Below are positions 15,536-49,427 of a stretch of DNA of 64,000 nt, piece by piece (the stretch's first letter is position 1; each line of letters starts with the position of its first letter). Source of the stretch: Taibaiella soli (GTDB lineage: Bacteria > Bacteroidota > Bacteroidia > Chitinophagales > Chitinophagaceae); NCBI RefSeq assembly GCF_003236175.1, contig NZ_QKTW01000006.1:9811-73810 (forward strand), in the 5' to 3' direction. Under the pieces are notes generated by a model, which saw nothing but the letters and a program-made list of their open reading frames with translations, searched no databases and was not told where the DNA came from. Made by a program: the position numbers and the translations under genes.

Positions 15536-16366
15536 ATGAACTGTGACGTAAAGATTTCAGACACCGAATTAATCGCACCGATTACGGCACCTAAGCTGAT
15601 ACTAAACAATTACACGGGCGGAAAAATAGAAGGTGAAGCGTTTGTGGCCGACCACATTTTCAGCTATATCATTTCGGGCGCACACGATATCTGGCTGGGG
15701 AACAAAATGTATTCTTTTAAAGCGGGCGACTTCCGTTTCTTCAAAAAGAATCAGCTGTCGCGATACGTCAAAAGCCCATCTAGCGACGGTTTCCGTTCTG
15801 TTGCCGTTCACATCGATCAATACACTTTGATGGAAATGAGCAATAACTATTCTCTGAAGGCAACCAAACGCAGCACTATCGACGGGCCGCTACTGCTCCG
15901 CCCGGATACCTTACTGCAAGGCTTTACGGATTCATTAATGCCTTACCTCAACACGGGACAAACGGATCCCCGGATCGTATCGCTCAAAACGAAAGAGCTT
16001 GTATTGTTGCTACTCCATAATCATCCGGCATTAAAGGAAGTACTATTTGACTTTAGCGAACCGGGAAAAATTGACCTGAAAGCCTTTATGAACAGCCATT
16101 ACAGATACAATGTAAGCCTCGACAAGTTTGCTTTCCTCACTGGCCGTAGCCTCTCTGCATTCAAACGGGATTTTACCCACCATTATAATATGAGCCCCGG
16201 ACGTTGGCTGGTGCAGCGAAGACTGGAGGACGCACGTTTTCTGATCGAAGAAAAAGCGCAGAGACCTTCCGAAATATATCTGGATCTGGGGTTCGAAGAT
16301 CTTTCTCATTTCTCCTATGCTTATAAAAAAGCATTTGGTTATGCGCCCGCAAAAAAACAGAATTAA
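15536..16366 (+). CDS. AraC family transcriptional regulator
   Basis: A 276-residue regulator with an N-terminal cupin-like sensing domain (about residues 20-110; SYIISGAHDIWLG, YSFKAGDFRFFKKN) and a C-terminal AraC double helix-turn-helix (about 180-272). The first HTH contains DKFAFLTGRSLSAFKRDFTHH and the second PSEIYLDLGFEDLSHFSYAYKKAFG, the family signature. It lies 30 bp upstream of an SDR gene in the same direction and probably controls it. The inducer is unknown. Confidence 0.92.
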   Translation: MNCDVKISDTELIAPITAPKLILNNYTGGKIEGEAFVADHIFSYIISGAHDIWLGNKMYSFKAGDFRFFKKNQLSRYVKSPSSDGFRSVAVHIDQYTLMEMSNNYSLKATKRSTIDGPLLLRPDTLLQGFTDSLMPYLNTGQTDPRIVSLKTKELVLLLLHNHPALKEVLFDFSEPGKIDLKAFMNSHYRYNVSLDKFAFLTGRSLSAFKRDFTHHYNMSPGRWLVQRRLEDARFLIEEKAQRPSEIYLDLGFEDLSHFSYAYKKAFGYAPAKKQN

Positions 16367-16396: not shown

Positions 16397-17194
16397 ATGG
16401 ATTTGAAATTAAAAGGAAAAACAGCGCTGGTAACAGGTTCCAGCTCAGGACTAGGTGAAGCAATCGTAAAAATGCTGGCAGCGGAAGGTGCCGCAGTAAT
16501 CGTACACGGACGTAATCAGGAAAGAGCCGAACGAGTAGCGAATGAAATCAACGCATCCGGTGGCAACGCGCGAACTGCAATTGGTGATCTTACAACCGAT
16601 GAAGGCGCAGATGCGGTTGCTGCGGCAGCATTGCAAGGCGGTGCTATAGATATTCTAGTGAATAATGCGGGTGCTACTTCACATAAATCCTGGGGAGAAG
16701 CCAGTGCCGATGACTGGTTGGATATTTACAACAATAACGTTGTCTCTTATGTACGGATGATCCGCCGTATCGTGCCGCAAATGAAATTGCTCGGTTGGGG
16801 AAGACTGGTCCACATTGGCGGCGGACTCGGCATTCAACCAATCAAAGAACAGCCGCATTACAACGCTACCCTCGCCGCCCGACATAATATGTCTGCGTCT
16901 CTGGCGCGCCAACTTAAAGAAACAGGCATTACATCGAATGTTGTTTCTCCGGGCGCCATTATTAACCCGATGGTAGAAGAGTGGCTGGTCAACGCAGCTC
17001 CGAAATTTGGCTGGGGAACGGATTTAGAGGAAATAAAATACAAAGCGGTACAGGATCTTATTCCAAATGATACCGGAAGATTCGGCAAGCCCGAAGAAAT
17101 TGCGGGTGCCGTGTCTTATCTCTGCAGCAACTATGCCGACTATATCAGCGGTGCAGTAATCAGAGTGGATGGCGGAACGATCAGATGCTTGTAA
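16397..17194 (+). CDS. SDR-family protein with altered active site
   Basis: A 265-residue classical-length short-chain dehydrogenase/reductase. The cofactor motif TGSSSGLG is at residues 13-20 and NNAG at 89-92. The usual catalytic Ser position reads HIGGGLG (139-145) and the YxxxK motif reads YNATL (155-159), so the Tyr is present but Ser and Lys are replaced by Gly and Leu. The C-terminal GAVIRVDGG is normal. Either the protein has lost dehydrogenase activity, or it belongs to an SDR branch with a different mechanism. It is co-directional with the AraC regulator 30 bp upstream. Confidence 0.88.
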   Translation: MDLKLKGKTALVTGSSSGLGEAIVKMLAAEGAAVIVHGRNQERAERVANEINASGGNARTAIGDLTTDEGADAVAAAALQGGAIDILVNNAGATSHKSWGEASADDWLDIYNNNVVSYVRMIRRIVPQMKLLGWGRLVHIGGGLGIQPIKEQPHYNATLAARHNMSASLARQLKETGITSNVVSPGAIINPMVEEWLVNAAPKFGWGTDLEEIKYKAVQDLIPNDTGRFGKPEEIAGAVSYLCSNYADYISGAVIRVDGGTIRCL

Positions 17195-17235
17195 CCGGCT
17201 TCTAAAGAAGCTAATGCGGAAGAAAAGCACGCTAG

Positions 17236-17392
17236 CACCTCGCCATGCAACACGTGATAACGATATTTCGTACTCCACACTATGTGGACATGCAACTGAT
17301 GTACACTGTGACTTCCTTTCCTAACTTCTGACATATTGCTAATTTAAGCCAGATTTGTAGAAGCTAAAGCCTTGCCCTAAAGGGCATAGCTT
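17236..17392 (-). mobile_element. Remnant of an IS200/IS605-type element (5' tnpA and left-end hairpin)
   Basis: From ATG 17334 on the minus strand the frame reads SHSVHQLHVHIVWSTKYRYH then VLHGEV, the N-terminal strand and HUH entry region of Y1 transposases (TnpA of IS200/IS605). Resemblance stops after about 33 residues, and neither the HUH motif nor the catalytic Tyr is present, so it is a pseudogene. Upstream on the same strand, 17361-17392 forms the hairpin AAGCTATGCCC/GGGCA..TAGCTT typical of the left end of such elements. It sits on the downstream border of the RADAR locus. Confidence 0.7.
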
Positions 17393-17436
17393 GAACTAGC
17401 GCGTTGGGACAGTCAAAGCCAATCTAAGACTCTGTG

Positions 17437-17481
17437 TAAGTCTAGTAGAAAGCCTCCATGTAGGCTCTTCTGCTAGACTTA
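17437..17481. repeat. Long perfect-armed hairpin downstream of rdrB
   Basis: TAAGTCTAG...CTAGACTTA forms the outer arms, TAGAA/TTCTG the middle and AGCCT/AGGCT the inner stem, with one bulged C: about 19 pairs in 45 nt. It lies 47 bp past the rdrB stop. No T run follows on either strand, so it is not a standard terminator. It could be an island or IS end, or a factor-dependent 3' stabiliser. Confidence 0.75.
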
Positions 17482-17527
17482 CGATTCGGAATTGCTGTTT
17501 AATTCGATTACAAATATTCACAAAGAG

Positions 17528-19873
17528 CTATCTTCTTTGAAACCTATATAAAACACTATTTTGCTGTAAGCGTCCAATAAATGTCATCGCCTTGTCCCGT
17601 CCCACTTTTTTAATCAAGTCGCAATAAACATTTGCATACTCGTTATAGATATTAGTTGCAAATATCCCAGTGTCATCTGTTCCGACAACAATAGGTGGTA
17701 TACACCAACCGTCCTCTTCCCATTTAAACCAATTCCAGAGATGATAGGTTTCAAAATTTCTATGGTGTCCAATCCTAACATTGCTTGTTGGCAATGTCTC
17801 TATTATAATCTCATTCTTATGCATAAAATGAAGCAAAATCAATTGAAGTTTTTCAATATGATTTTCATTTATTACTTCTTGAGAGTTAATTAAAATTGGT
17901 TCATTATATTTTCCTCTGAAAAAAGCGGAATGGTAAAGTTGTAATATTTCCACCGTTTCTACTCTAATATTTGCGTTTGCGATTTGATCCCATTCGCCAT
18001 CGTCGTACACATCCAACAAGCGAGCCCGAGCCTTGTCATTCCTATTGAATAAAATCATAGGACAATATTTTCGACAGAGCCAAGCTTCTTCAATATCCTG
18101 CACATCCCTTTGCAGACCAAATATTTCTTTAAAATATTTCAATATATAACTTTCCAAAGCCGGTACAACATTTGCCAATTCTTCAACATTCATTTTTTTA
18201 ATTAAATGTCTAACAAAAACCAAAGTATCCATCCACTCACCTCTACGAATCAACATTTGCTCGCCAATTATCGACAGCCATCTTTTTACCGACAACCCGC
18301 TTGCCGTACAATGCCCAATACGATCTCCCTTACTGAGCTCTGTAAAGACAATTGCCTCATAAACAGATCGTAACCCCGATAAAATATGAAAGAAATCTTC
18401 TCCTGCATGGTAAGTAAAATGCAGAACACCGGTCCTGCGCATATATCTAAATACCGGTCCAAATACTTCAGGCGGCGTATCAAATTCACTTGATGCGGCA
18501 TCAATTCCTACAATACTTTGTGAGTAATGACCTCCGTGGTCTATAAAGGATCTAAGTTCAAGAGCTCTTTGCCATAAATCAATTCTTAAGGATTTGTATC
18601 GGATAAGTTTCGAAGAATTATTGTCAGGCCCCTTAATAAAATGCCCAACTAAACTAAACCCAGGACCTACTGCTAAATTTGCATTCAGCTTTTGCCAACC
18701 ACGTTCAATTGCCTGCATCATAGATATATTTTTCCCTCTATCTTTTTGCGGAGAGAACCTACCTTCCAAAAATGCTAAATTGTTCATTTCATTTCCTTGC
18801 ATTTGAAAAAAACGCTTGGCATATGTTTTTTCGCTAAACTCCCTTAACCCATTCAAAGTATGTTTTTGAAATTGTTCGAAACCATGTTGATGGGTTTGCT
18901 GAACCAGCAAACGATTACACAATCCACATATCAACAGATAGAAATGAAAAAGAGATGCAACAATCGAACCTGGTTGCGCTTGCATATGCCGGAATACCAA
19001 AATATACATCAGCATTTCAACTCTCATCGCATTATCGTCATCAGAATATAGAAGTCTACAAAAAGGGCTTTTATTAAAACCTACGTCATTAGTAGTATCT
19101 ACTATTTTGTATAATAATAGCTCGGGATTTTGTTTACCTGATTCCGCGCGTTGTTTAAAAATAAATTCAAATAGTTTTTGCCTAATTCGCCTTGCTATAT
19201 GTAATAGGTTTAAATATTTTAGAGGTTTGAGCAAATGAGATTCCTGCTCTAATTGCTCTTTAACTTTTGGTTTCGAAAACCCTTTGGACAACTCCTTATA
19301 GACAACCTCCGGATAACTTAAATGATCTTGCCAAACGTGATCCGTCTCTGTAGTTCCGTTAAGATGAACATGTAAATCATGAAATCCGCCGTGTAATGCC
19401 GAAAAGCCCTGGAGATGTGGAATAAACGGCCGCGGCAACGCCGTATATCTACAGTTAGGCACAATGTAATGGCTATAATATTCATTAATGGTTTCCGCTC
19501 TTAAATCACGTAAAGTTTTTTGTCCATGCAAAAAAGCGGCTTGTAATATTAAGGGTGGGATATATGTTAATAATTCCTGCCATTCATTTTGATTATTTTG
19601 CTGAACATACACAATATCTGCCCGTATCTCCAGATATTCCTTGGCAATATCATATATACCCAGACATAGAAGATCCTCTATAGTCTTCTTGTCATTAAAT
19701 ACATTTTCCTGCAGCAGCCTATAGTAGTGGTCCGGTATATCTCGCGCGGCTTCTCTCGTTTTAAGAAATAATCGTCGTTTAACGTCTGTGAACGACACCT
19801 TAGAGCCTTCGACATATTCGCTTAATGAAAGGTCGTCGTTGAGCAAATGACGGAGCATAACTGAAACTACCAT
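17528..19873 (-). CDS. rdrB: RdrB-like adenosine deaminase of a RADAR defence system
   Basis: A 781-residue protein carrying a divergent adenosine/AMP-deaminase domain. The zinc and catalytic motifs occur in order: HVHLNG (residues 168-173), YHAGED (488-493), IGHC (519-522), LPTSNVRIG (694-702) and GTDDTG (731-736). A normal adenosine deaminase is about 340 residues; the long N-terminal part and the ~200-residue inserts match RdrB of RADAR, which works with RdrA to deaminate adenosine in RNA or nucleotides during phage infection. The ATG at 19873 overlaps the rdrA stop by 7 nt (translational coupling); Met6 is an alternative start. The gene is visibly AT-richer than its flanks, which suggests transfer. 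Confidence 0.88.
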   Translation of the reverse strand: MVVSVMLRHLLNDDLSLSEYVEGSKVSFTDVKRRLFLKTREAARDIPDHYYRLLQENVFNDKKTIEDLLCLGIYDIAKEYLEIRADIVYVQQNNQNEWQELLTYIPPLILQAAFLHGQKTLRDLRAETINEYYSHYIVPNCRYTALPRPFIPHLQGFSALHGGFHDLHVHLNGTTETDHVWQDHLSYPEVVYKELSKGFSKPKVKEQLEQESHLLKPLKYLNLLHIARRIRQKLFEFIFKQRAESGKQNPELLLYKIVDTTNDVGFNKSPFCRLLYSDDDNAMRVEMLMYILVFRHMQAQPGSIVASLFHFYLLICGLCNRLLVQQTHQHGFEQFQKHTLNGLREFSEKTYAKRFFQMQGNEMNNLAFLEGRFSPQKDRGKNISMMQAIERGWQKLNANLAVGPGFSLVGHFIKGPDNNSSKLIRYKSLRIDLWQRALELRSFIDHGGHYSQSIVGIDAASSEFDTPPEVFGPVFRYMRRTGVLHFTYHAGEDFFHILSGLRSVYEAIVFTELSKGDRIGHCTASGLSVKRWLSIIGEQMLIRRGEWMDTLVFVRHLIKKMNVEELANVVPALESYILKYFKEIFGLQRDVQDIEEAWLCRKYCPMILFNRNDKARARLLDVYDDGEWDQIANANIRVETVEILQLYHSAFFRGKYNEPILINSQEVINENHIEKLQLILLHFMHKNEIIIETLPTSNVRIGHHRNFETYHLWNWFKWEEDGWCIPPIVVGTDDTGIFATNIYNEYANVYCDLIKKVGRDKAMTFIGRLQQNSVLYRFQRR

Positions 19874-22623
19874 TCCAAAGAATTACCATTTATGTATTTT
19901 CTGAAATTCCAAGCCTTGCTAGATTTACTACCGACATTAAAAAATCGGGGAAACATCTTGTAAATCTGGTCATTGTTTTTTGAATCCATCATCAAATCAT
20001 ATGGAATGTTATTATTTCGACAGTAGTTATAAAGATCCTCGTTCGAAACAATTGCGTCTAGGCTATATAATTCGTTATTCATTGTTTCACTCTGACCATT
20101 ATAAACGGTATCTATATTTGAAAGCAATTTATAAACCGACAATTGCCGATTCTCGTTATATATTTCTGGATATATAAACGTCTGAAACGATCCATTTTTC
20201 GTAATTTCTCCGTTTAGATAGCAAAGTAATAGCGGACACGAAATCATCCATTTCGAAAATGGCAATTCTGAAGCCTTAGAACTGAGTTTTATTAGATTAT
20301 TTAAAAATATTTTATCAGTATCAATTGCATTATCGATGTTAATATTAGCGGCATCTTTCAGATTTTCTTTTGCTTCTTCCACTAGTATCGCATTCATAAA
20401 TGTTATAACCATTCGATGCATTGCATCTCCGGCATTTTGAGGGCGGCTTTTTTTATTCCCAAAAGCATAAAACATCCTTGTCGAAATTTTACCCAATAAA
20501 TGTGGAGAAATTGCATCTACATCAAACAGTTTAATCCAGCACTCCGCATACGATTTCAATTCTGTAGCATTTTCTGTTTGGTCTTCTTTGTCAAAAACTA
20601 TGTCATTTATATCATCATTGTCAGTAAGAGATCGTTCAAAATTTGGCGCACTGTATTCCCGTATCTGTGACAATTCTAAAAAACCATTATCCAGATCATC
20701 CTCGGTTGCTCTTCTGATCAACTCCGCAATAGCTCCTAAAAGTGTATAAATAGAATAGACGACCATAGAACTTTGTCGATGAGCGGGAGATGCTATACTG
20801 GCCGGAAGTTTAATAAGAATACTCTGAGTAATATCAGCCTGTTTAAAGACGGAATCTATCCTGTTCGAATCCCCTCTTTTCCCTAAAGAAGCAAGCCCCT
20901 TCAATTGAACTGAACCTTCAGGCTGATTAGCTCCTTTACTAGTAGTCCCTTTTACTCCCACCATGTACGAGAGCATTAATGCCGCACTATCACGCAGTAC
21001 CCGATCTTGCAACAAAGCTGCGTGCTTACATATCCCTTCTACGGAAGGGATCGCCGCATTAAGATTATTATTTAAACTTTGTTTACCATCAAGATATCCA
21101 ACTGTACTAAGAAGATTCCTCAAATAACCAATCTTGATGAAATAATCGAAAATCAAAAAGGGGCTGTTCTTAATACTTTCACTTAAAATAAAATTCAGAG
21201 CCACGAGGCATGCGTTCAAAACTTCGTCGGTTGTGGTCGGCTGTAGTTGATATGTTTCACCGAATTTCTTTTCCTGGATTAATAAATTTAAGATCGTCGG
21301 TGATAAAAATTGCTCTCGTCCCTCAAACGTACTTATCTGTATTTTTTTATCAAATAGCTCACTGAGAAATACATCAGAAATATCGTTTCGTAATAAACTA
21401 TAATCCGAATTCATAAAAATTGACAGAAAACGTATCTGAGACCGCAGAGGCAAATTCAAAAAGTAGGATCGATACGCTTCGGCTTGATAAGAATTTTTTA
21501 TCCCAAACTTTACAAAAACACACTCATAAGTATCCCTAATATTCCGTAAAATGACTTCACCATTAGAAAGCATTTGAATCATAATATTATACCCATCTGC
21601 TTTGGGAGATGGCTTTGGTAGGATAGGTGAATCTCCACGAGAAATTTCTGCAGGTGGTTCGCGGTCATCTCGACGCCCTTTATACAGAAGCTTTTCCCCC
21701 AGAGTCGTTAAATGAATTCGACGTTCAGGTTTTAGAACTTTCTTTAGATACTGTCCTTCCAATTCGGTTACAATGTTATTGTATTCATCACGTCTTCCAC
21801 CGAAATCAGCTTCATTTTTCAGAAGAGCCTTACCAAAGTTTTTCCACTGTTGTTTTCGAACGGATAATGAAAAGAGTTTAAAATCGCCACTTATTATTGT
21901 AAAGACATGAGGCGATGTAAGATATTTTCTTATAGTTTCTAGTACTGGCCATCCTTTTGTGAAGCTTACATCAATATCATCCAGTATTAACAAAAATGCT
22001 TTTTTCTTAAGGATCTCTAAGGCGTATGTAATAAGGTCGTTGAAATTTTCTTCCAATTTACGCGCAGATGTTACCGCACGAATACCACGTTGCATAATGT
22101 ATTCAGGGTCCTGCCATTCCGCATTAGTAAGTTCTGTACCGATGCCGTCTAACGAGGGCAAACCATGGGCTAAAGACTCGACCTTTTGGATCCATACATT
22201 TTTCCTGTGAAATTCAGCACTTCTTGGATCACAATTATTTGTATCAAGCTGGCTATCTACAACATCTTTAATCAAAGAAATTATGTTAAGAAAAACGTGT
22301 CCTTTTTCTTCAATCAGAGTAGGGTCAATGATATCCAAAATCTGTATTTCAGGTTTTTGCTTCAAACAATATTCTTTTATTGTTAGAAGAAAGCTTGTTT
22401 TCCCAGTACCTCTCCCCCCCAATACACTAACTGCATCATGGGTTCTAAGAAACTTTTTCGTTCCTCCACTATTGTTAACATCATTTATAAGTCTAACTCT
22501 GGCGTCTATCCATTCATCGACCCGATTAAATTCCCTACGATGTACGAGTTCATTTTCATGTTGATTTTCCGGCGAGAAGTGCTTTGCATCAGTACTGTTT
22601 AACAGGTTGATTTTAATATCCAT
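19867..22623 (-). CDS. rdrA: RdrA-like P-loop ATPase of a RADAR defence system
   Basis: A protein of 918 residues from ATG 22623; an upstream in-frame ATG at 22665 would add 14 residues. The Walker A motif GGRGTGKT is at 69-76, a Walker B LLILDDIDVS at 211-220 and a sensor-1-like FTIISGDF near 240, giving an AAA+/STAND-like N-terminal ATPase. The long remaining part is alpha-helical with no known domain. Size, gene order (ATPase upstream of a giant adenosine deaminase) and 7-nt overlap match RdrA of RADAR, in which RdrA rings load substrate on an RdrB shell. No accessory membrane gene (SLATT- or Csx27-like) is adjacent. The sequence is clearly AT-rich (one sampled line is 30% GC). Confidence 0.87.
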   Translation of the reverse strand: MDIKINLLNSTDAKHFSPENQHENELVHRREFNRVDEWIDARVRLINDVNNSGGTKKFLRTHDAVSVLGGRGTGKTSFLLTIKEYCLKQKPEIQILDIIDPTLIEEKGHVFLNIISLIKDVVDSQLDTNNCDPRSAEFHRKNVWIQKVESLAHGLPSLDGIGTELTNAEWQDPEYIMQRGIRAVTSARKLEENFNDLITYALEILKKKAFLLILDDIDVSFTKGWPVLETIRKYLTSPHVFTIISGDFKLFSLSVRKQQWKNFGKALLKNEADFGGRRDEYNNIVTELEGQYLKKVLKPERRIHLTTLGEKLLYKGRRDDREPPAEISRGDSPILPKPSPKADGYNIMIQMLSNGEVILRNIRDTYECVFVKFGIKNSYQAEAYRSYFLNLPLRSQIRFLSIFMNSDYSLLRNDISDVFLSELFDKKIQISTFEGREQFLSPTILNLLIQEKKFGETYQLQPTTTDEVLNACLVALNFILSESIKNSPFLIFDYFIKIGYLRNLLSTVGYLDGKQSLNNNLNAAIPSVEGICKHAALLQDRVLRDSAALMLSYMVGVKGTTSKGANQPEGSVQLKGLASLGKRGDSNRIDSVFKQADITQSILIKLPASIASPAHRQSSMVVYSIYTLLGAIAELIRRATEDDLDNGFLELSQIREYSAPNFERSLTDNDDINDIVFDKEDQTENATELKSYAECWIKLFDVDAISPHLLGKISTRMFYAFGNKKSRPQNAGDAMHRMVITFMNAILVEEAKENLKDAANINIDNAIDTDKIFLNNLIKLSSKASELPFSKWMISCPLLLCYLNGEITKNGSFQTFIYPEIYNENRQLSVYKLLSNIDTVYNGQSETMNNELYSLDAIVSNEDLYNYCRNNNIPYDLMMDSKNNDQIYKMFPRFFNVGSKSSKAWNFRKYINGNSLEW

Positions 22624-22972
22624 GTTGCGCTTATTCACGTGCAATATATAAATATTTTCAAGCAATTTATTCCGTTATGTTTTCATTATCACTCGTTTAC
22701 CCTTTACAAATTCCCCAAAACCTAACAATAGCGCTTCTAACAGAAACTTTCGGAATATAAACGCTGAACCTCAAAGCATCAATCCCTGGATTCCGAACGT
22801 AAGATCAACAACCTGAACCCAACTCGCCATTTTTGGGGATCCATACCCGTAGAAATACCTGTTTTTTGCCTAAATCCTTGCAATCAGATTTTTAGCGACT
22901 TACATTTATGTGACAATTGTAATACTGAAAGAGCACTAAACAAGGAATTACAATTATTAAACTATCCACATC
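22624..22972. other. Divergent spacer upstream of rdrA
   Basis: This 349-bp spacer separates rdrA from the divergent lipoprotein gene. It includes AT-rich segments (acatttatgtgacaattgta near 22905) that could hold promoters, but no strong TTTG / TAnnTTTG pair and no regulator gene. Island and core sequence probably meet here; I cannot place the border. Confidence 0.4.
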
Positions 22973-24397
22973 ATGAAAAAATCATTCAACCTGCCGGTCG
23001 TGCTGACCGCGGCGGCCGCTATGGCATTAGCGACCTACAGTTGCAACAACGCAGGCAACAGCAATCAGCAAAAAGAAGATTCCACGAAAACCGAGGCGAT
23101 GGAAATGCCCCTCAATGGAGCGTTTCAAAACCACCGCGATTCGGTACCATCGAAACAGCAGTATGATGCACCGCTTTTTGTGTTAAGTCATGATTACCCG
23201 ACTACAGAAACGCCGGTCAATAATCCATCCTGGCAACAGGCGCTGAATGGCCAGCCGATCTCTGATAAGAATACCATGGCTTATATGGATTCATTAAAAT
23301 CGTACGTTGCGCCAAACCTCCTGCCGTTCTTTACCGACAATAAAAACTGGAATGCGGCACAGCACGGCTGGTATCATGAGCCATGGATGGGCAGTCAACG
23401 TGAAGCTATTCTCGGTGCTTATCTCGGTAATGGTAACCCGGCCAATATGTTTAAAACGCTGAAAGAAGACGAAGCCGGATATGCGGTGGTGTTATATGAT
23501 CCGACAGCGGCTTATACGGTGGGACAAATCTGGGGTAAAACAGGACAGAAAGTAAATCTTGCCAATGATGCCTCTCAGTTTAAAGAAGGCTCGGTAATCG
23601 TAAAACTCGCTTTCTCTAACGTTAACTTCCCGCAATGGCCAGTATTGAAAGACGCACTGACTTTTGATGTGTACGATACTATTCCAACGAAAGAAAATCC
23701 GAAGAAAGGTTATCAGATGCGTAAAGTCAGTTTCTTCCAGATGGATATTATTGTGAAAGACAGCAAAACGTCGCCAAAAACAGGCTGGGTCTACTCTACG
23801 TTTGTTTATGATAAAGATGCGAAAGGTAATTTCTGGGATAAAATGGTACCGCTCGGCGCAATGTGGGGCGATGATCCAAACGTGATCAGCCCGATCAAAC
23901 CACCGTATCCGAAATTATCTGAAACAGTGATCAATCCAAAAGCACCTTTCTACAGTAAAGAAACACTTGGCTGGGGCGGTCGTTTGAGTGGTCCGAATGA
24001 CGGCGCAGTAGCACAGCAGGCTGTGAATATCGATTCACCGAATGTTGTTTATAACAATCTGCCGTTGTCTTCTTGTATGAGCTGTCACAGCCCTTCACAG
24101 GATACATTTAAATCATTCCTGCTGCCGGCGCCGTTCCCTAAGAACTCAGATACAGCATTCTTCGTGTATACTCCGGGCAGTAAAAACTGGAATCTCTGGT
24201 TCAGAGACCTTGCACCAAATGAAGCATTCGATGCAGGACAAACATCAATGGACTATGATATGGTAATGGCATTCAAATCTATTCCTGCTTACCTGGCTGC
24301 ACAACCGAAACCTACGACTCAAAACAAAATGCTCCGTGCCAATATCGAAGCTACGCAGCGTTTCAGAAGACATACTACAAGTCAGTTCTGGCACTAG
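22973..24397 (+). CDS. Lipoprotein with a single haem c motif
   Basis: A 474-residue exported protein. The N-terminus has a hydrophobic signal (VVLTAAAAMALATYSC) with a lipobox-like end and Cys at residue 24, so it is probably anchored to a membrane. A single CxxCH motif, CMSCH, occurs in LPLSSCMSCHSPS (about residues 364-376), the expected haem c attachment site. Most of the chain has no named domain that I recognise; WYHEPWMGSQREAILGAY near 135 is distinctive. The protein may be a monohaem electron carrier or an enzyme using haem c. A strong terminator follows. Confidence 0.75.
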   Translation: MKKSFNLPVVLTAAAAMALATYSCNNAGNSNQQKEDSTKTEAMEMPLNGAFQNHRDSVPSKQQYDAPLFVLSHDYPTTETPVNNPSWQQALNGQPISDKNTMAYMDSLKSYVAPNLLPFFTDNKNWNAAQHGWYHEPWMGSQREAILGAYLGNGNPANMFKTLKEDEAGYAVVLYDPTAAYTVGQIWGKTGQKVNLANDASQFKEGSVIVKLAFSNVNFPQWPVLKDALTFDVYDTIPTKENPKKGYQMRKVSFFQMDIIVKDSKTSPKTGWVYSTFVYDKDAKGNFWDKMVPLGAMWGDDPNVISPIKPPYPKLSETVINPKAPFYSKETLGWGGRLSGPNDGAVAQQAVNIDSPNVVYNNLPLSSCMSCHSPSQDTFKSFLLPAPFPKNSDTAFFVYTPGSKNWNLWFRDLAPNEAFDAGQTSMDYDMVMAFKSIPAYLAAQPKPTTQNKMLRANIEATQRFRRHTTSQFWH

Positions 24398-38722: not shown

Positions 38723-41700
38723 TCAGCTATTCGCCTTTGAGTTCTTATCAAAAAACGAAAAGATCTTCAACACAGCCGGCACGCCTGCACCAATCACCGT
38801 TACATACGTAATCAGTGTTGCATACACTTCTTGTTGCGACACCAACAGGAATGCCAGAATCGCCACAGTCACCAGCATCAGCGGTGTACGTAAACTTGCC
38901 CAGCTGCCGTTATCACGAATTTGTGTTTTAATCTTCATTGCTTCCGAATTACCAATAGCCGTAAGAATAAAATTGCGGAAACCTTTATTGAACAAACGCA
39001 GTGAACCATCCACATGCACGATAATTCCCTTACTCACCAGCAAACTCAGATTATAATCATCAAAAGAATTTACCAGTCCATCTTCCGCTAAATCGTACAA
39101 CAGGAATTTCTCCTCTTTGGTCAACGATTGCCAGATGTACATGTAGAAATAATGCGAGGTCACCTGCAGTTTAAACGCCAGCGAATCCACATCATAGCCC
39201 GATGTGCCGTCTTGTCCGCCGGGAAAAGAATCAGCAGTTTGTATCGCAATCGCCTGCATCTCCTGTAAAAAATGCGTGTACTGCGTTTCGCGTTCCATCA
39301 GCTCATACCCTTCTTTTTGCGCCGTGGTTTTATAAACACGCAGCGGCATAATCAGAATACGGTAATGGCCCAGCAATACATGCCAGCGTTGCAGATCATG
39401 CCCCGGCTTGCCGGTAGATTCATCAGATGTTTGCGAATTCACGGAATCCAGGAAACTTACCGGGTGCACCGTAGACACAACAATAACCTTCGCTTTATAC
39501 TGATACATCAAAGACTCCAGCAGGTTCAGTTTTATATTGTTGGTCTGCGCAGAATTGATATTGTATTCAAAATGATTAATGATAATCAGCTTGTTTTTAT
39601 TGTCCATTATCTTCGCCACATGCTCCTTCCACTCTTTCCATTCCTGCGAAGTACCGTCCCCTTCTTCTATATCGGGAATCAGCAGCATGTCCGCAATAAA
39701 CATATTCGACTCCTCCGGTTTACCTTCTACCCATTTGATCACCGTACTGTCCTTCCACCGCATTTTTCCGAGCTTAATTACTTCCAGTACTTTTTTCAAT
39801 TTACCTGCACCCGGCGCGCCAATTATAAACAGTAAATTATTCAGTGTATTATCTTCCAGCATCCGCTCGTCAATACTACTCCAGGCCGAAGTATCCGGCA
39901 GATTCAACGCAAACAGCTTGCGTATGACTCGATAAATAATATAGTAAAAAACAACCATCGTCAACCCAAGCAGCATCCAGAACAAAAAACCTTTTCCATA
40001 CCACAGCGGAATCTGATAAGTCAGATCGAGCGATCTCAGTTTAATGTATTGACCAGGAGTACGTGTTTTGATATAAGAAACTGTATTGTCATTTCCATTG
40101 CAAATGGTCAGCAGATTATTGAACAGAATAGAACGGTCATCAGAAGCAGGCTGATTAAAGGCATCTTCGCCCACTGCCAGTTCACTTTTATAAAAGCGGA
40201 ACAACCGCAGCATTGCTATCGCAGCCAGGTCTTCCTGCTGATAATCTTTTGAAAGCGTTCTTATTTGCTGATCTGAAAGTGTACAAAGCGTGCAGGTGTC
40301 AATCCAGCAACTATCACTGTAAATGCCGGTAAATTTTTGAAGGTTCAGACTATCGTTTGAAAATGCTGCATGTTCCGGATACGTAAATTTTTGCATCAGC
40401 TGCTGTGCAAAATCATAATGTTTATACCGTACCGAAAGGTTTTGCTCGTAATTGTAACCAAACGTATAGAAGAATGCAACCGGCACACCGCTGGAGAGAA
40501 TGAGCCGCGTGAGCAGCATTGCCGCAAAGCTTTGTGTGTAGCCCGCAGATTGTTTGGCAATACCCAGCGGACCTTTTGCTGATAATCTTTTCTGCCATCC
40601 GTCTTCTATCCAGTAAAAAATAAAAAAGCCGATCAGCGATAAGCCTTCGAACAAAAGAAAACAATTTCCCGGCAGGCCATTTCTTGAAATAATCGCTCCA
40701 ATATTAATCAACAATATAAACGCAGCCAGCGACAGCACGGTCATCAACTTGTATTTATAATTATTGTGCTTGTTCTCTTCACGATATCTTTTAGCGTAAA
40801 GCAACGTAAGAAAAAGCGTACTGAACGTAACTGCAAACAAGAGTATAAACACATACTCCATAAAGCTCGTGCGCATAAAAAAACAACACAACAACGCAAT
40901 CATAAAAAGATGAAAAAGCGCTGCCACCAGGTATTGCACGTGGAAAGAAATACGCGGCCCCACCCAGCTGGTATCGAAAAATTGCTTCTTGAAAAATGAT
41001 CTTTTCGCTGCAACAAGGAAAATAACCAGCAACTGCAAAGTGAAGAACAGGAAGAAACAAACAAACATCCCAAACGTAAAACTGTACACTTCTATATCAC
41101 GGGTATCCTTAAAATTCTTGTCCGCCATAATGACGATGTACATGGGATAAGCGCCCAGTTGTTGTACACGCACGATGTATTGCCGGCCTAAATATTTGGT
41201 TAGAAATTCATCATTGGTCCGGGCTTCTATGTTGCTACGCAAACGGTTTCCTTCCGAGAATTCGGTAAACAGGTTTTCATTAAGGTTATGTGTCTTATCG
41301 GAATGATACAGCACTTTGCCCGATTGATCGGTTACTGCAAAAAGGTAGCCTGCCGGCAAAATCACACTATCCAGACTGCGCACGGCAAATGACATGGCAG
41401 CAATTGTTTTCGCCGAGTCTGTAGTCATGCCGGACAATAAAGACATCACGCTGGTAAATGTTCCCGTCGTCCAGGAAGTCACCTGATCCAGATAGAACAT
41501 CGAATCTGCATGACCATTGAGATGAAAACCGGTGCTGTCCGAAATCTCGCGATAGTAGCCTCTTTTCTGATAATCCCCATGCGGCGCATTTCGATCTTCT
41601 ACTGTCCAGTTATAGGTTTCAAAGCCATTTTTATTCAGCCAGAACACTTGTACGGGACGAACACCTTTCATCAATGTATCCAGTTTCCCGAATGGAAAAT

Positions 41701-42844
41701 CCCTATCCATCACACTATTGCTATTCAGCATTCCAGACGCTACGGTTGCTTTCCGAAGATTCACTAAATCACCTTTGCCTTTCTGCACCGTCATCAAACT
41801 ATCTATTGCATACAGTCGGTTGTAGGTGTATGATACTTCGCGGTTAAATGAATTTTCAATCCGGTTGGCCAGCACTTCTTTTGAATCTGGAATGCACACA
41901 GGACGCACCGGCACGTTGTATTTAAAGAAAGCAAGAAATACGAGCGACATCAGCAGAATGGAAACAACAATCGTCCAAACGCCGTCCAGGAGCGTCACCC
42001 GATCCGGACCGCCCATATTAAACAACTTGATCCAGGGGAATGAAATGGTGATACCCAGTGCCACGGTCAGCAAAAACAAGACAATATTAAAAGGCAACTG
42101 GCTGCGTTCTTGTTGATATCGACTGTTAGACATTAACCCGCCGATCACCCATTGATTATTGGCATCAAAATATACCGGCTGCAAAAAAAGTTTATAAGAA
42201 ACGCCACCAATCGTTACATTTTTTACACCGGAACCACCAATGCCGTTTTTCAGATTTAGAATAGAATCTTTTTCAAATTTCGCGAGCCCGGAAGGAAATG
42301 TTTCATACACGACGCGCTTGTTGCCAAATACTACATACTCGTCAAAAACATTTTCAGGCAACAACATTTTTATAAACTGATCAAACCGGAACCGCATGCT
42401 GATCACTTTATGTCCGGTGGCCACCGTACTGTCTTTCCTGATAAAGAACAAACTGAATTGCTGATTATCATCATCAACTTTAATGGTGTAATTACTGTCA
42501 GCGCGCTGGCGGAACGGGTTCAGACTGTCTCGTATCTGGCGTTGATCATGTAGTGCGAGCTTAAAATTATCGTCGGGATAATTGTCAATATATTTTTGAA
42601 GCTCCTCGCGATTTACATCTTTGCTATAATACGCCGTCAGCAAATTATTGATCAGCGCTACGCTATTATCTATTTTTTCATGAATGTTCTTGTCTACATT
42701 CTGCAGCACCCGAAAATTCTGCTTCTGAATATGACTTTCATTGGCCGGCAGGTAAAAAAAGAAATAACCCATGCCGACAGCAAGCACTACCAGCAATGTA
42801 GTAAAGGCAACCGCCTGCCTGCGATTTATGGAAAAGAATTTCAT
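38723..42844 (-). CDS. Very large multi-pass membrane protein with degenerate P-loop domain
   Basis: A 1373-residue protein with a first membrane helix (about residues 13-31), an extracytoplasmic sensor-like region (about 33-250), two helices (about 253-310), a second extracytoplasmic region (about 312-585; FAVTDQSGKVLYHSD recalls dCache domains), several further helices, another extracytoplasmic segment and helix near 960-985, and a cytoplasmic NTPase-like domain. That domain has IIGAPGAGKL (1008-1016), where the usual Ser/Thr after Lys is Leu, a strand LIIINHFE in the Walker B position, VIVVSTVHP as a sensor-1-like strand and a winged-helix-like segment near 1245-1290. Two helices end the chain. 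I know no characterised homologue. It may couple an external signal to a cytoplasmic ATPase-like module. Confidence 0.75.
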   Translation of the reverse strand: MKFFSINRRQAVAFTTLLVVLAVGMGYFFFYLPANESHIQKQNFRVLQNVDKNIHEKIDNSVALINNLLTAYYSKDVNREELQKYIDNYPDDNFKLALHDQRQIRDSLNPFRQRADSNYTIKVDDDNQQFSLFFIRKDSTVATGHKVISMRFRFDQFIKMLLPENVFDEYVVFGNKRVVYETFPSGLAKFEKDSILNLKNGIGGSGVKNVTIGGVSYKLFLQPVYFDANNQWVIGGLMSNSRYQQERSQLPFNIVLFLLTVALGITISFPWIKLFNMGGPDRVTLLDGVWTIVVSILLMSLVFLAFFKYNVPVRPVCIPDSKEVLANRIENSFNREVSYTYNRLYAIDSLMTVQKGKGDLVNLRKATVASGMLNSNSVMDRDFPFGKLDTLMKGVRPVQVFWLNKNGFETYNWTVEDRNAPHGDYQKRGYYREISDSTGFHLNGHADSMFYLDQVTSWTTGTFTSVMSLLSGMTTDSAKTIAAMSFAVRSLDSVILPAGYLFAVTDQSGKVLYHSDKTHNLNENLFTEFSEGNRLRSNIEARTNDEFLTKYLGRQYIVRVQQLGAYPMYIVIMADKNFKDTRDIEVYSFTFGMFVCFFLFFTLQLLVIFLVAAKRSFFKKQFFDTSWVGPRISFHVQYLVAALFHLFMIALLCCFFMRTSFMEYVFILLFAVTFSTLFLTLLYAKRYREENKHNNYKYKLMTVLSLAAFILLINIGAIISRNGLPGNCFLLFEGLSLIGFFIFYWIEDGWQKRLSAKGPLGIAKQSAGYTQSFAAMLLTRLILSSGVPVAFFYTFGYNYEQNLSVRYKHYDFAQQLMQKFTYPEHAAFSNDSLNLQKFTGIYSDSCWIDTCTLCTLSDQQIRTLSKDYQQEDLAAIAMLRLFRFYKSELAVGEDAFNQPASDDRSILFNNLLTICNGNDNTVSYIKTRTPGQYIKLRSLDLTYQIPLWYGKGFLFWMLLGLTMVVFYYIIYRVIRKLFALNLPDTSAWSSIDERMLEDNTLNNLLFIIGAPGAGKLKKVLEVIKLGKMRWKDSTVIKWVEGKPEESNMFIADMLLIPDIEEGDGTSQEWKEWKEHVAKIMDNKNKLIIINHFEYNINSAQTNNIKLNLLESLMYQYKAKVIVVSTVHPVSFLDSVNSQTSDESTGKPGHDLQRWHVLLGHYRILIMPLRVYKTTAQKEGYELMERETQYTHFLQEMQAIAIQTADSFPGGQDGTSGYDVDSLAFKLQVTSHYFYMYIWQSLTKEEKFLLYDLAEDGLVNSFDDYNLSLLVSKGIIVHVDGSLRLFNKGFRNFILTAIGNSEAMKIKTQIRDNGSWASLRTPLMLVTVAILAFLLVSQQEVYATLITYVTVIGAGVPAVLKIFSFFDKNSKANS

Positions 42845-48303: not shown

Positions 48304-49380
48304 TCATAGCTGGACAAAATGAATCGCAGCTTCGGCACCGAAAGCGGCCCTCACCCTTTCCGGATGTGTATCTGTCAGCAGAACCTGCCCGAAACCCTCG
48401 CCGCGGATAATCCGGAGTAAAGCCTCAATACGGTTCTGATCCAGTTTTTCAAAAATATCGTCCAGCAAAAGAATTGGTAAATGTCCGAGGACTTTACTCA
48501 GGTAAGCGTATTGTGCCAGTTTCAAGGCAAAAAGATAGCTTTTTTTCTGTCCTTGTGAGCCGAATTGACGGATCAACGCATTTTCAAGCACATAAGCCCA
48601 ATCATCTTTATGAATACCACGCGTAGTGCGCTGCAGGCGAAGATCATTTTGCAGGCTTTCTTTCAACCATTGCAACATTGGTTTCTGTAAAAGATCTGAT
48701 TCATAAATCATTTTGATCTCTTCCCTGCCGCCGCAAAGCTGGTGATAATACGCATCGAGCAAAGGCAGGAATTCAACCAAAAATAATTTCCTTTTCTGGT
48801 GAATGTATTCGCCGTGCATGGCCAATTGATCATTGTAAAAATCTAAAGCGATACTGTCCGTCGATGGATTCTGGAATTGTTGTTTCAGCCAGGCATTGCG
48901 CTGCTGCAACACGCGCTGGTATTGCATCAGACTCTCCAGATACACTTTATCCGTTTGCCCGAGAATGCTGTCCACCCATTTCCGGCGTTCCTCTCCCCCA
49001 TTGTTGATCAACTCCAGATCATCCGGAGCAATCATCACAGCTGCATATTTTCCAATGTATTCCGCAACACGGTCGTATTCCACGCCGTCACATATCAATT
49101 CTTTTTTCCCTTGTTTCCATTTACAACTCACTGTTTCGGTTTTTCCGTCCTTTTCAAAAACACCCTCCACCCGGAAACCGTCCAAACCAGTTTGCACCAC
49201 ATTTTGCTGATAAGCGGTAAAATAACTTTTGGTATAGCATAAATAATACACAGCATCAAGCAGATTCGTTTTTCCACTACCATTTGGACCTGTAATACAA
49301 GTCACTGGCTGTGAAAACTCGAAATTCCCGGTGCTATAATTCCGGTACTGGATTACAGATATTTTACGAATGGTTGTCAA
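48304..49380 (-). CDS. recF: DNA replication/repair protein RecF
   Basis: RecF is an SMC-like ATPase that loads RecA at single-strand gaps through RecOR. Walker A GPNGSGKTN is at about residues 30-38, the signature region is QGQKKSYLFALKLAQYAYL (about 280-298) and Walker B is LPILLLDDIFEKLD (about 304-317). The start is uncertain: a TTG at 49380 gives TTIRKISVIQYRNYS, the usual RecF beginning, and a 358-residue protein. A longer frame from TTG 49422 would include the promoter box at 49420-49427, so I reject it. It is divergent from pdhA. Confidence 0.94.
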   Translation of the reverse strand: MTTIRKISVIQYRNYSTGNFEFSQPVTCITGPNGSGKTNLLDAVYYLCYTKSYFTAYQQNVVQTGLDGFRVEGVFEKDGKTETVSCKWKQGKKELICDGVEYDRVAEYIGKYAAVMIAPDDLELINNGGEERRKWVDSILGQTDKVYLESLMQYQRVLQQRNAWLKQQFQNPSTDSIALDFYNDQLAMHGEYIHQKRKLFLVEFLPLLDAYYHQLCGGREEIKMIYESDLLQKPMLQWLKESLQNDLRLQRTTRGIHKDDWAYVLENALIRQFGSQGQKKSYLFALKLAQYAYLSKVLGHLPILLLDDIFEKLDQNRIEALLRIIRGEGFGQVLLTDTHPERVRAAFGAEAAIHFVQL

Positions 49381-49419
49381 GCAGATACTGGGGGAACAAA
49401 ACTTTTTATAAATTCGCTG

Positions 49420-49427
49420 CAAATTTA
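49420..49427 (-). promoter_or_regulatory. -7 box of recF promoter
   Basis: TAAATTTG on the minus strand matches TAnnTTTG and lies 40 bp before the recF TTG at 49380. It is only 8 bp from the pdhA start on the other strand. No -33 TTTG is visible at the usual distance. Confidence 0.5.

Follow-up and report, generated by a model that had tools for sequence, protein, structure and literature searches.

The rdrA-rdrB gene pair of Taibaiella soli, located in the 64,000-nucleotide stretch of DNA analysed here (the window), is very probably a RADAR system reduced to its two core genes and belonging to the same lineage as Escherichia coli RADAR (EcRADAR), and by analogy with the E. coli system it would convert (d)ATP to (d)ITP on infection. 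The RADAR identity of the pair was supported in every sequence and fold test that we ran. The evidence obtained here comprises the gene pair itself, its homology, its catalytic residues, the predicted monomer folds, the lineage and the base composition.

The gene pair and its identity by sequence profile

A sequence-only reading of this DNA had proposed a variant RADAR locus on the grounds of overlapping frames of 918 and 781 residues; both were confirmed, and the strand, which that reading did not give, is minus (Table 1). The motifs that it had listed were likewise all present and in the order claimed, namely GGRGTGKT and LLILDDIDVS in RdrA and, in RdrB, HVHLNG (H168, H170), YHAGED (H489, E492), IGHC (H521), LPTSN (from residue 694) and GTDDTG (D733, D734). 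Both open reading frames are intact, and frame 1 of the plus strand of the region contains many stops. An in-frame TTG at 22665, 14 codons 5' of the rdrA ATG, would give an alternative RdrA of 932 aa. The two genes are presumably carried on one transcript, and the same 7-bp spacing of rdrA and rdrB was found in six related loci (L017, L031, L047, L027, L029 and L034).

Table 1. Positions of the gene pair and of other features of the window
Feature	Position	Strand	Remarks
rdrA	22623-19867	minus	918-aa AAA+ ATPase, ATG at 22623
Walker A GGRGTGKT of RdrA	22396-22419	minus	residues 69-76, K75; position derived from residue numbers
rdrA stop / rdrB start overlap	19867-19873	minus	7 bp
rdrB	19873-17528	minus	781-aa oversized adenosine deaminase
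AraC-type regulator	15536-16366	plus	beyond rdrB
Gene convergent with rdrB	16397-17194	plus	
Inverted repeat	17436-17482		15-nt arms (93% complementary) separated by 17 nt; lies between rdrB and the convergent gene
Intergenic region, rdrA / lipoprotein-like gene	22624-22972		349 bp; presumed promoter region, from gene layout
Lipoprotein-like gene	22973-24397	plus	474 aa; divergent from rdrA; weak cytochrome P460 match; no PADLOC match
ORF near recA	38723-42844	minus	1373 aa
AAA protein gene	48304-49422	minus	372 aa

The profile search that the sequence-only reading had proposed as a check matched both proteins to RdrA and RdrB models. RdrB matched the NCBIfam RdrB model at E 1.4e-46 (159.5 bits) and RdrA the corresponding RdrA model at E 2.1e-43 (148.9 bits); the PADLOC models gave E 5.3e-21 for RdrB and E 1.6e-38 for RdrA, and phmmer searches against the PDB found EcRdrB at E 1.8e-66 and EcRdrA at E 6.9e-27. 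Large overlapping frames with NCBIfam matches of this strength indicate that the pair did not arise by chance. Both proteins score under the curated NCBIfam cut-offs of 800 bits (RdrB) and 600 bits (RdrA). These scores do not argue against membership, because EcRADAR, the lineage with proven defence, scores lower still: RdrB and RdrA of E. coli MSI001 (L064), which match the PDB 8fnw and 8hr7 chains over their full length (1855 and 2126 bits), served as a control and reached 118.6 and 128.8 bits, respectively, with these NCBIfam models. Among the proteins chosen for scoring, only those of Aliivibrio and Salmonella passed the cut-offs (2 of 10 RdrB and 2 of 10 RdrA proteins), and all six EcRADAR-lineage pairs scored, that of E. 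coli included, fell far under them together with the window pair.

RdrA was also examined with profiles built from RdrA alignments. These matched the RdrA of S. suis at E 1.6e-24 with E. coli rows and E 5.2e-24 without them, and a single-sequence search with the window RdrA gave no match to this protein. In the PDB, the only proteins that the profile without E. coli rows matched up to E 0.01 were the RdrA of E. coli (E 1.1e-71) and that of S. suis; the E. coli match of the other profile is by construction, since E. coli RdrA rows are inside it.

Catalytic residues, predicted folds and assembly contacts

PMC9994260 identifies H152, H154, H498 and H530 as the zinc ligands of EcRdrB and E501 as its catalytic glutamate. 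In our alignment, H152/H154/H498/E501/H530 correspond to H168/H170/H489/E492/H521 of the window protein and are identical in 45 of 45 rows, in which D733 and D734 are invariant too. The same paper names the Walker A, Walker B, sensor 1 and sensor 2 residues of EcRdrA; K82, D221/D222, D253 and R377 align with K75, D215/D216, D247 and R394 of the window RdrA. The Walker A lysine, the two Walker B aspartates and the sensor 2 arginine are invariant in all 41 rows of the RdrA alignment, and the sensor 1 aspartate is found in 25 of them.

The AlphaFold2 model of the RdrB monomer (pLDDT 92.6, pTM 0.93), computed from a 26-row alignment free of E. coli rows, superposed on solved EcRdrB with Z 40.7 and 2.8 A over 711 of 781 residues. 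Plain deaminases covered about 287-371 of the 781 residues with Z at most 26.5, 371 being the maximum among the non-RdrB matches listed; the best-scoring of them, from Pseudomonas, reached Z 26.5 over 305 residues, 406 fewer than EcRdrB. ADA2-like folds aligned over up to 371 residues (Z at most 25) and chains of the CRISPR-associated deaminase Cad1 over 308-325 residues (Z 21.7-26.4), nearly all of the latter alignments starting at residue 148-149 and one at 90. Given the 711-residue match to EcRdrB and these shorter deaminase and Cad1 matches, the parts specific to RdrB are present in the model. The RdrA monomer model, likewise from an alignment without E. coli rows, was predicted with pLDDT 78.6 and pTM 0.72 and has several low-confidence stretches. 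Its residues 29-848 matched EcRdrA with Z 30.4 over 705 residues, and S. suis RdrA was matched with Z 22.5 over 518 residues; the next-best folds were ORC/Cdc6 and BrxC AAA+ proteins at Z 11.4 or less. The predicted model has the AAA+ part plus helical C-terminal lobe expected of RdrA, which is weakly conserved outside its ATPase part.

These data bear on a first alternative, that the locus encodes a housekeeping or purine-salvage adenosine/AMP deaminase lying beside an unrelated P-loop ATPase. RdrB does pass the Pfam A_deaminase model (40.1 bits, cut-off 27) and is the sole A_deaminase match found in the genome. However, adenosine deaminase models gave 37.7 bits at most, against 159.5 bits for the RdrB model, the best of them being TIGR01430, whose cut-off of 216.55 bits lies far above this score, so that RdrB is no full-length equivalog match. 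The fold coverage also contradicts this reading, at 287-371 of 781 residues for plain deaminase folds against 711 for EcRdrB, and the neighbouring ATPase matches RdrA by both profile and fold and recurs in 41 of 49 loci. We therefore regard a housekeeping enzyme as extremely improbable. The sequence-only reading had named two outcomes that would speak against RADAR. What was found is that RdrB aligns with RdrB in preference to housekeeping deaminases (159.5 versus 37.7 bits; 711 versus 305 residues) and that RdrA aligns with RdrA (148.9 bits; Z 30.4 versus 11.4 for the next AAA+ fold) and not with an unrelated STAND family.

Another enzyme with the same core is Cad1, and a Cad1-like CRISPR effector would turn ATP into ITP when signalled by cyclic oligoadenylate. 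Cad1 is not known to have an RdrA partner. The PADLOC CARF_ADA model did match RdrB at E 3.2e-8, and Cad1 chains align to its deaminase core with the Z-scores given above, but the PADLOC RdrB models scored 72.5 bits against 30.9 for CARF_ADA, and the N-terminal part of RdrB is left unmatched, as the Cad1 alignments nearly all start at residue 148-149. The Pfam scan showed no CARF domain in RdrB, and an RdrA partner is present. As described in PMC11645235, Cad1 of type III CRISPR systems is an ATP-to-ITP deaminase sharing its core fold with RdrB, in which a CARF sensor is fused to the deaminase and which forms a hexamer. From the profiles and the fold coverage, the Cad1 and the housekeeping readings were both judged unlikely, the former having hardly any probability left, and a RADAR pair remains the preferred reading.

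The residues through which EcRADAR assembles are less well kept. According to PMC9994260, changing K150, E151 or R162 in the crown of EcRdrA weakens or abolishes defence, and the three-fold-interface glutamates E595-E597 of EcRdrB are also needed. The crown residues align with K141, N142 and H153 of the window RdrA, one of three being kept, and in the window RdrB the places of the glutamates are taken by a gap, L and Q; both groups of columns vary throughout the sets (41 RdrA and 45 RdrB rows). Since the E. coli contact residues are changed, the contacts, if kept, would rely on other residues in the window pair, and on the predicted models an RdrA-RdrB assembly is plausible. The largely replaced docking and shell residues, together with the lack of an accessory gene in the window, would fit a Bacteroidota branch of the EcRADAR lineage that differs in its trigger or in the surfaces used for assembly, which we consider improbable.

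Neighbourhood, relatives and distribution

Downstream of rdrB, the convergent gene, which we take to encode a short-chain dehydrogenase, is followed by the AraC-type regulator gene, and the inverted repeat between rdrB and the convergent gene is a possible terminator. Terminator-like sites around the pair were at the level of shuffled sequence, and sigma-70 promoter-like sites in 17000-23200 numbered 29 against 19.0 (sd 5.1) in shuffles, a difference that does not decide the matter. The genes rdrC and rdrD are accessory genes of RADAR. Next to the pair there is no same-strand ORF of at least 80 aa that is free of overlap with another gene, which leaves the pair without an attached accessory gene. 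PADLOC recognised no defence island among 10 other ORFs of the window, of which only the lipoprotein-like gene is an immediate neighbour.

Three further observations concern the remainder of the window. The 1373-aa ORF near recA shows weak matches to nSTAND3 (E 0.0016, sub-cut-off) and AbiEi (E 0.0023) and may be another ATPase with a role in defence or regulation. The 372-aa AAA protein matched PADLOC mads_3 (mad3) at E 7.9e-26 and may be no more than a RecF-like housekeeping ATPase. One window protein has a Por_Secre_tail domain, a domain typical of Bacteroidota, in line with a host from this phylum.

The pair has a GC content of 36-39% and its surroundings mostly one of 42-47%, and GC3 is 0.313 and 0.324 for the two genes versus 0.407-0.54 in 19 nearby ORFs. 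This foreign base composition suggests horizontal acquisition of the pair. No empty site was found, since a search of 58 other genomes gave no match to the lipoprotein-like gene. One genome (G017) preserves the order of the AraC-type regulator and the convergent gene; in its 34-kb stretch, these two were the only ones among 21 window proteins to align (E 1e-6), apart from a weak cross-match of another dehydrogenase-like ORF, too few for the insertion point to be placed. None of 16 families of direct repeats (at least 14 nt, 16800-23400) had copies flanking the pair. It could be argued that this is a decayed or repurposed RADAR copy without defensive activity, as no recognised defence gene adjoins the pair and the EcRADAR interface residues are changed. 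Such decay is nevertheless very unlikely: both frames are intact, the catalytic residues are kept, and the foreign composition is consistent with a cassette spread by horizontal transfer.

Among known systems, EcRADAR (PDB 8FNT, 8FNV, 8FNW and 8HR7; L064) shares with the window pair the rdrA-rdrB order, similar protein sizes (RdrA 947 aa in E. coli and 918 here; RdrB 799 and 781), the catalytic residues, a near full-length fold and the clade. The two are only 26% (RdrB) and 21% (RdrA) identical, and are set apart by the three-fold-interface glutamates and by two of the three crown residues; L064 and L065, both from E. coli, also lie near type I restriction genes, whereas no such gene was recognised next to the window pair. 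The NCBIfam type of RADAR, as on plasmid pVSAL840 of Aliivibrio salmonicida (L060, annotated rdrA/rdrB), has the same two-gene architecture and catalytic residues, but its RdrB is 848 aa long, 22.6% identical to that of the window and on a separate branch. A long type of RdrB in Bacteroidota and Lachnospiraceae (L036-L041, L043, L053-L057) is a homologous deaminase of 840-917 aa that falls in a separate clade and shares about 20-22% identity with the window protein; in 8 of these 12 loci, an ATPase ORF of 790 aa or more lies next to it. In L054, L056 and L057, the ATPase partner of this long type appears as two ORFs, through a frameshift, an assembly error or a real split.

The nearest relatives, from Dysgonomonas sp. 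25 and BGC7, a Tannerella MAG and genome G363 (L027, L031, L017 and L047), share the 7-bp overlap and are 48-50% identical to the window in RdrB and 40-43% in RdrA. In L017, L027 and L031, an HsdR-like and a YgjP-like gene precede RADAR (families tested in L017, the others assigned by similar starts), and neither adjoins the window pair; with its differing downstream genes, this looks like a modular defence site. Several relatives lie beside restriction or other defence genes, namely type I restriction genes (L064, L065 and L017), Dcm/Vsr (L058), KwaA (L028), a PDC-S18 candidate (L017) and a MukB/JetC-like gene (L051). The KwaA-like gene (E 1.3e-56) overlaps the rdrB end in a Bacteroidales MAG (L028:10276-10908), and in a genome of the same family as the window (L051:1207-6424) a row of three genes follows, the first overlapping the rdrB end and the last being MukB/JetC-like (Pfam MukB E 1.1e-6). 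A short gene after rdrB in L021 has a weak SLATT match (E 0.0014), with a likely counterpart in L020 that has no PADLOC match, and Aureibacter carries an annotated SLATT gene at this place.

The T. soli genome (5.38 Mb in 32 contigs) holds one rdrA and one rdrB. RdrB matches were found in 11 of 395 genomes of an even phylum sample and in 4 of 394 genomes of a family sample, its own genome counted in each; one of the 11, a 381-aa frame in G337 matched at E 4.3e-4, probably encodes a plain deaminase. A peptide-pattern scan of genome contigs, which finds close relatives, gave 29 loci, and EcRADAR-type rdrB was found by blastn with the Pantoea gene in 4 of 5426 complete E. coli genomes. Seven plasmid records hold relatives at 24-29% identity; no viral-contig stretch matched the peptide patterns, and phage records searched by tblastn at E 1e-3 held none.

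In 41 of 49 loci, the window counted, the gene directly before rdrB is an ORF of 790 aa or more that aligns as RdrA. The other eight are L030, L035 and L052, with none by this rule; L032, cut off by a contig end; and L036, L054, L056 and L057, with shorter ORFs. In L052, a 794-aa ORF lies one small ORF away from rdrB, and L030 and L005/L012 are probably one contig. The RdrB alignment and tree include 45 of the 49 homologues, those shorter than 740 aa (L030, L032, L034 and L035) being left out. In a quick tree, the window fell into a clade of 25 rows that also holds E. coli, Pantoea and Rhizobium (SH-aLRT 100), and within it into a 19-row subclade (SH-aLRT 100) mainly of Bacteroidota and same-class or same-family genomes, with one member of Spirochaetota and two of Bacillota; the deeper branching order is uncertain because of long branches and odd composition flagged for the tree.

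Proposed activity and significance

The oligomeric state, substrate, activation by infection and defensive role of the window pair are carried over from E. coli RADAR. On this model, RdrA, an AAA+ ATPase that forms a heptamer in E. coli, would respond to a signal of phage infection and dock on RdrB, which forms a dodecameric deaminase shell in E. coli. RdrB would then convert ATP and dATP to ITP and dITP, which would block phage replication and probably harm the infected cell. In PMC9994260, RdrA and RdrB are reported to form a joint complex, and large amounts of (d)ITP accumulate in infected cells; PMC11645235 describes the activation mechanism of RADAR as unexplained.

The sequence-only reading had left the product as adenosine deaminated in RNA or in nucleotides. 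In a rival reading, the pair is a genuine RADAR whose activity is A-to-I editing of RNA in place of mononucleotide deamination. RNA editing was the original proposal for Citrobacter RADAR, as told in PMC9994260, and PDB titles describe RdrA rings in an 'RNA-loading state'. In the same paper, however, purified RdrB deaminates ATP and dATP and leaves hairpin RNA unchanged under conditions that convert ATP, so that mononucleotide deamination is the better-supported product. The large build-up of (d)ITP and a core fold that is that of mononucleotide deaminases also argue against RNA editing, which has only a slight chance of being the activity here.

The claim that this is a RADAR variant was thus borne out by profiles, folds and catalytic residues. 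A search of the open-licence literature returned nothing relevant on RdrB in Bacteroidota and nothing on RADAR with RdrC. RADAR is rare, having been found in 270 of about 38,000 genomes according to PMC9994260, and the spread given there over 75 genera and 7 phyla corrects the statement of the sequence-only reading that it is described mostly from Enterobacteria; a further member adds little novelty, because the system has already been published from this range of phyla. Pantoea and Rhizobium copies of RADAR are annotated as hypothetical, and this labelling, together with the scores of EcRADAR-lineage pairs far under the cut-offs, indicates that the current NCBI cut-offs for RdrA and RdrB miss the EcRADAR lineage and that automatic annotation overlooks it. 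As an intact and simple pair with an RdrB that shares about 26% identity with EcRdrB, the T. soli locus offers a useful comparison for conserved surfaces and activators of RADAR.
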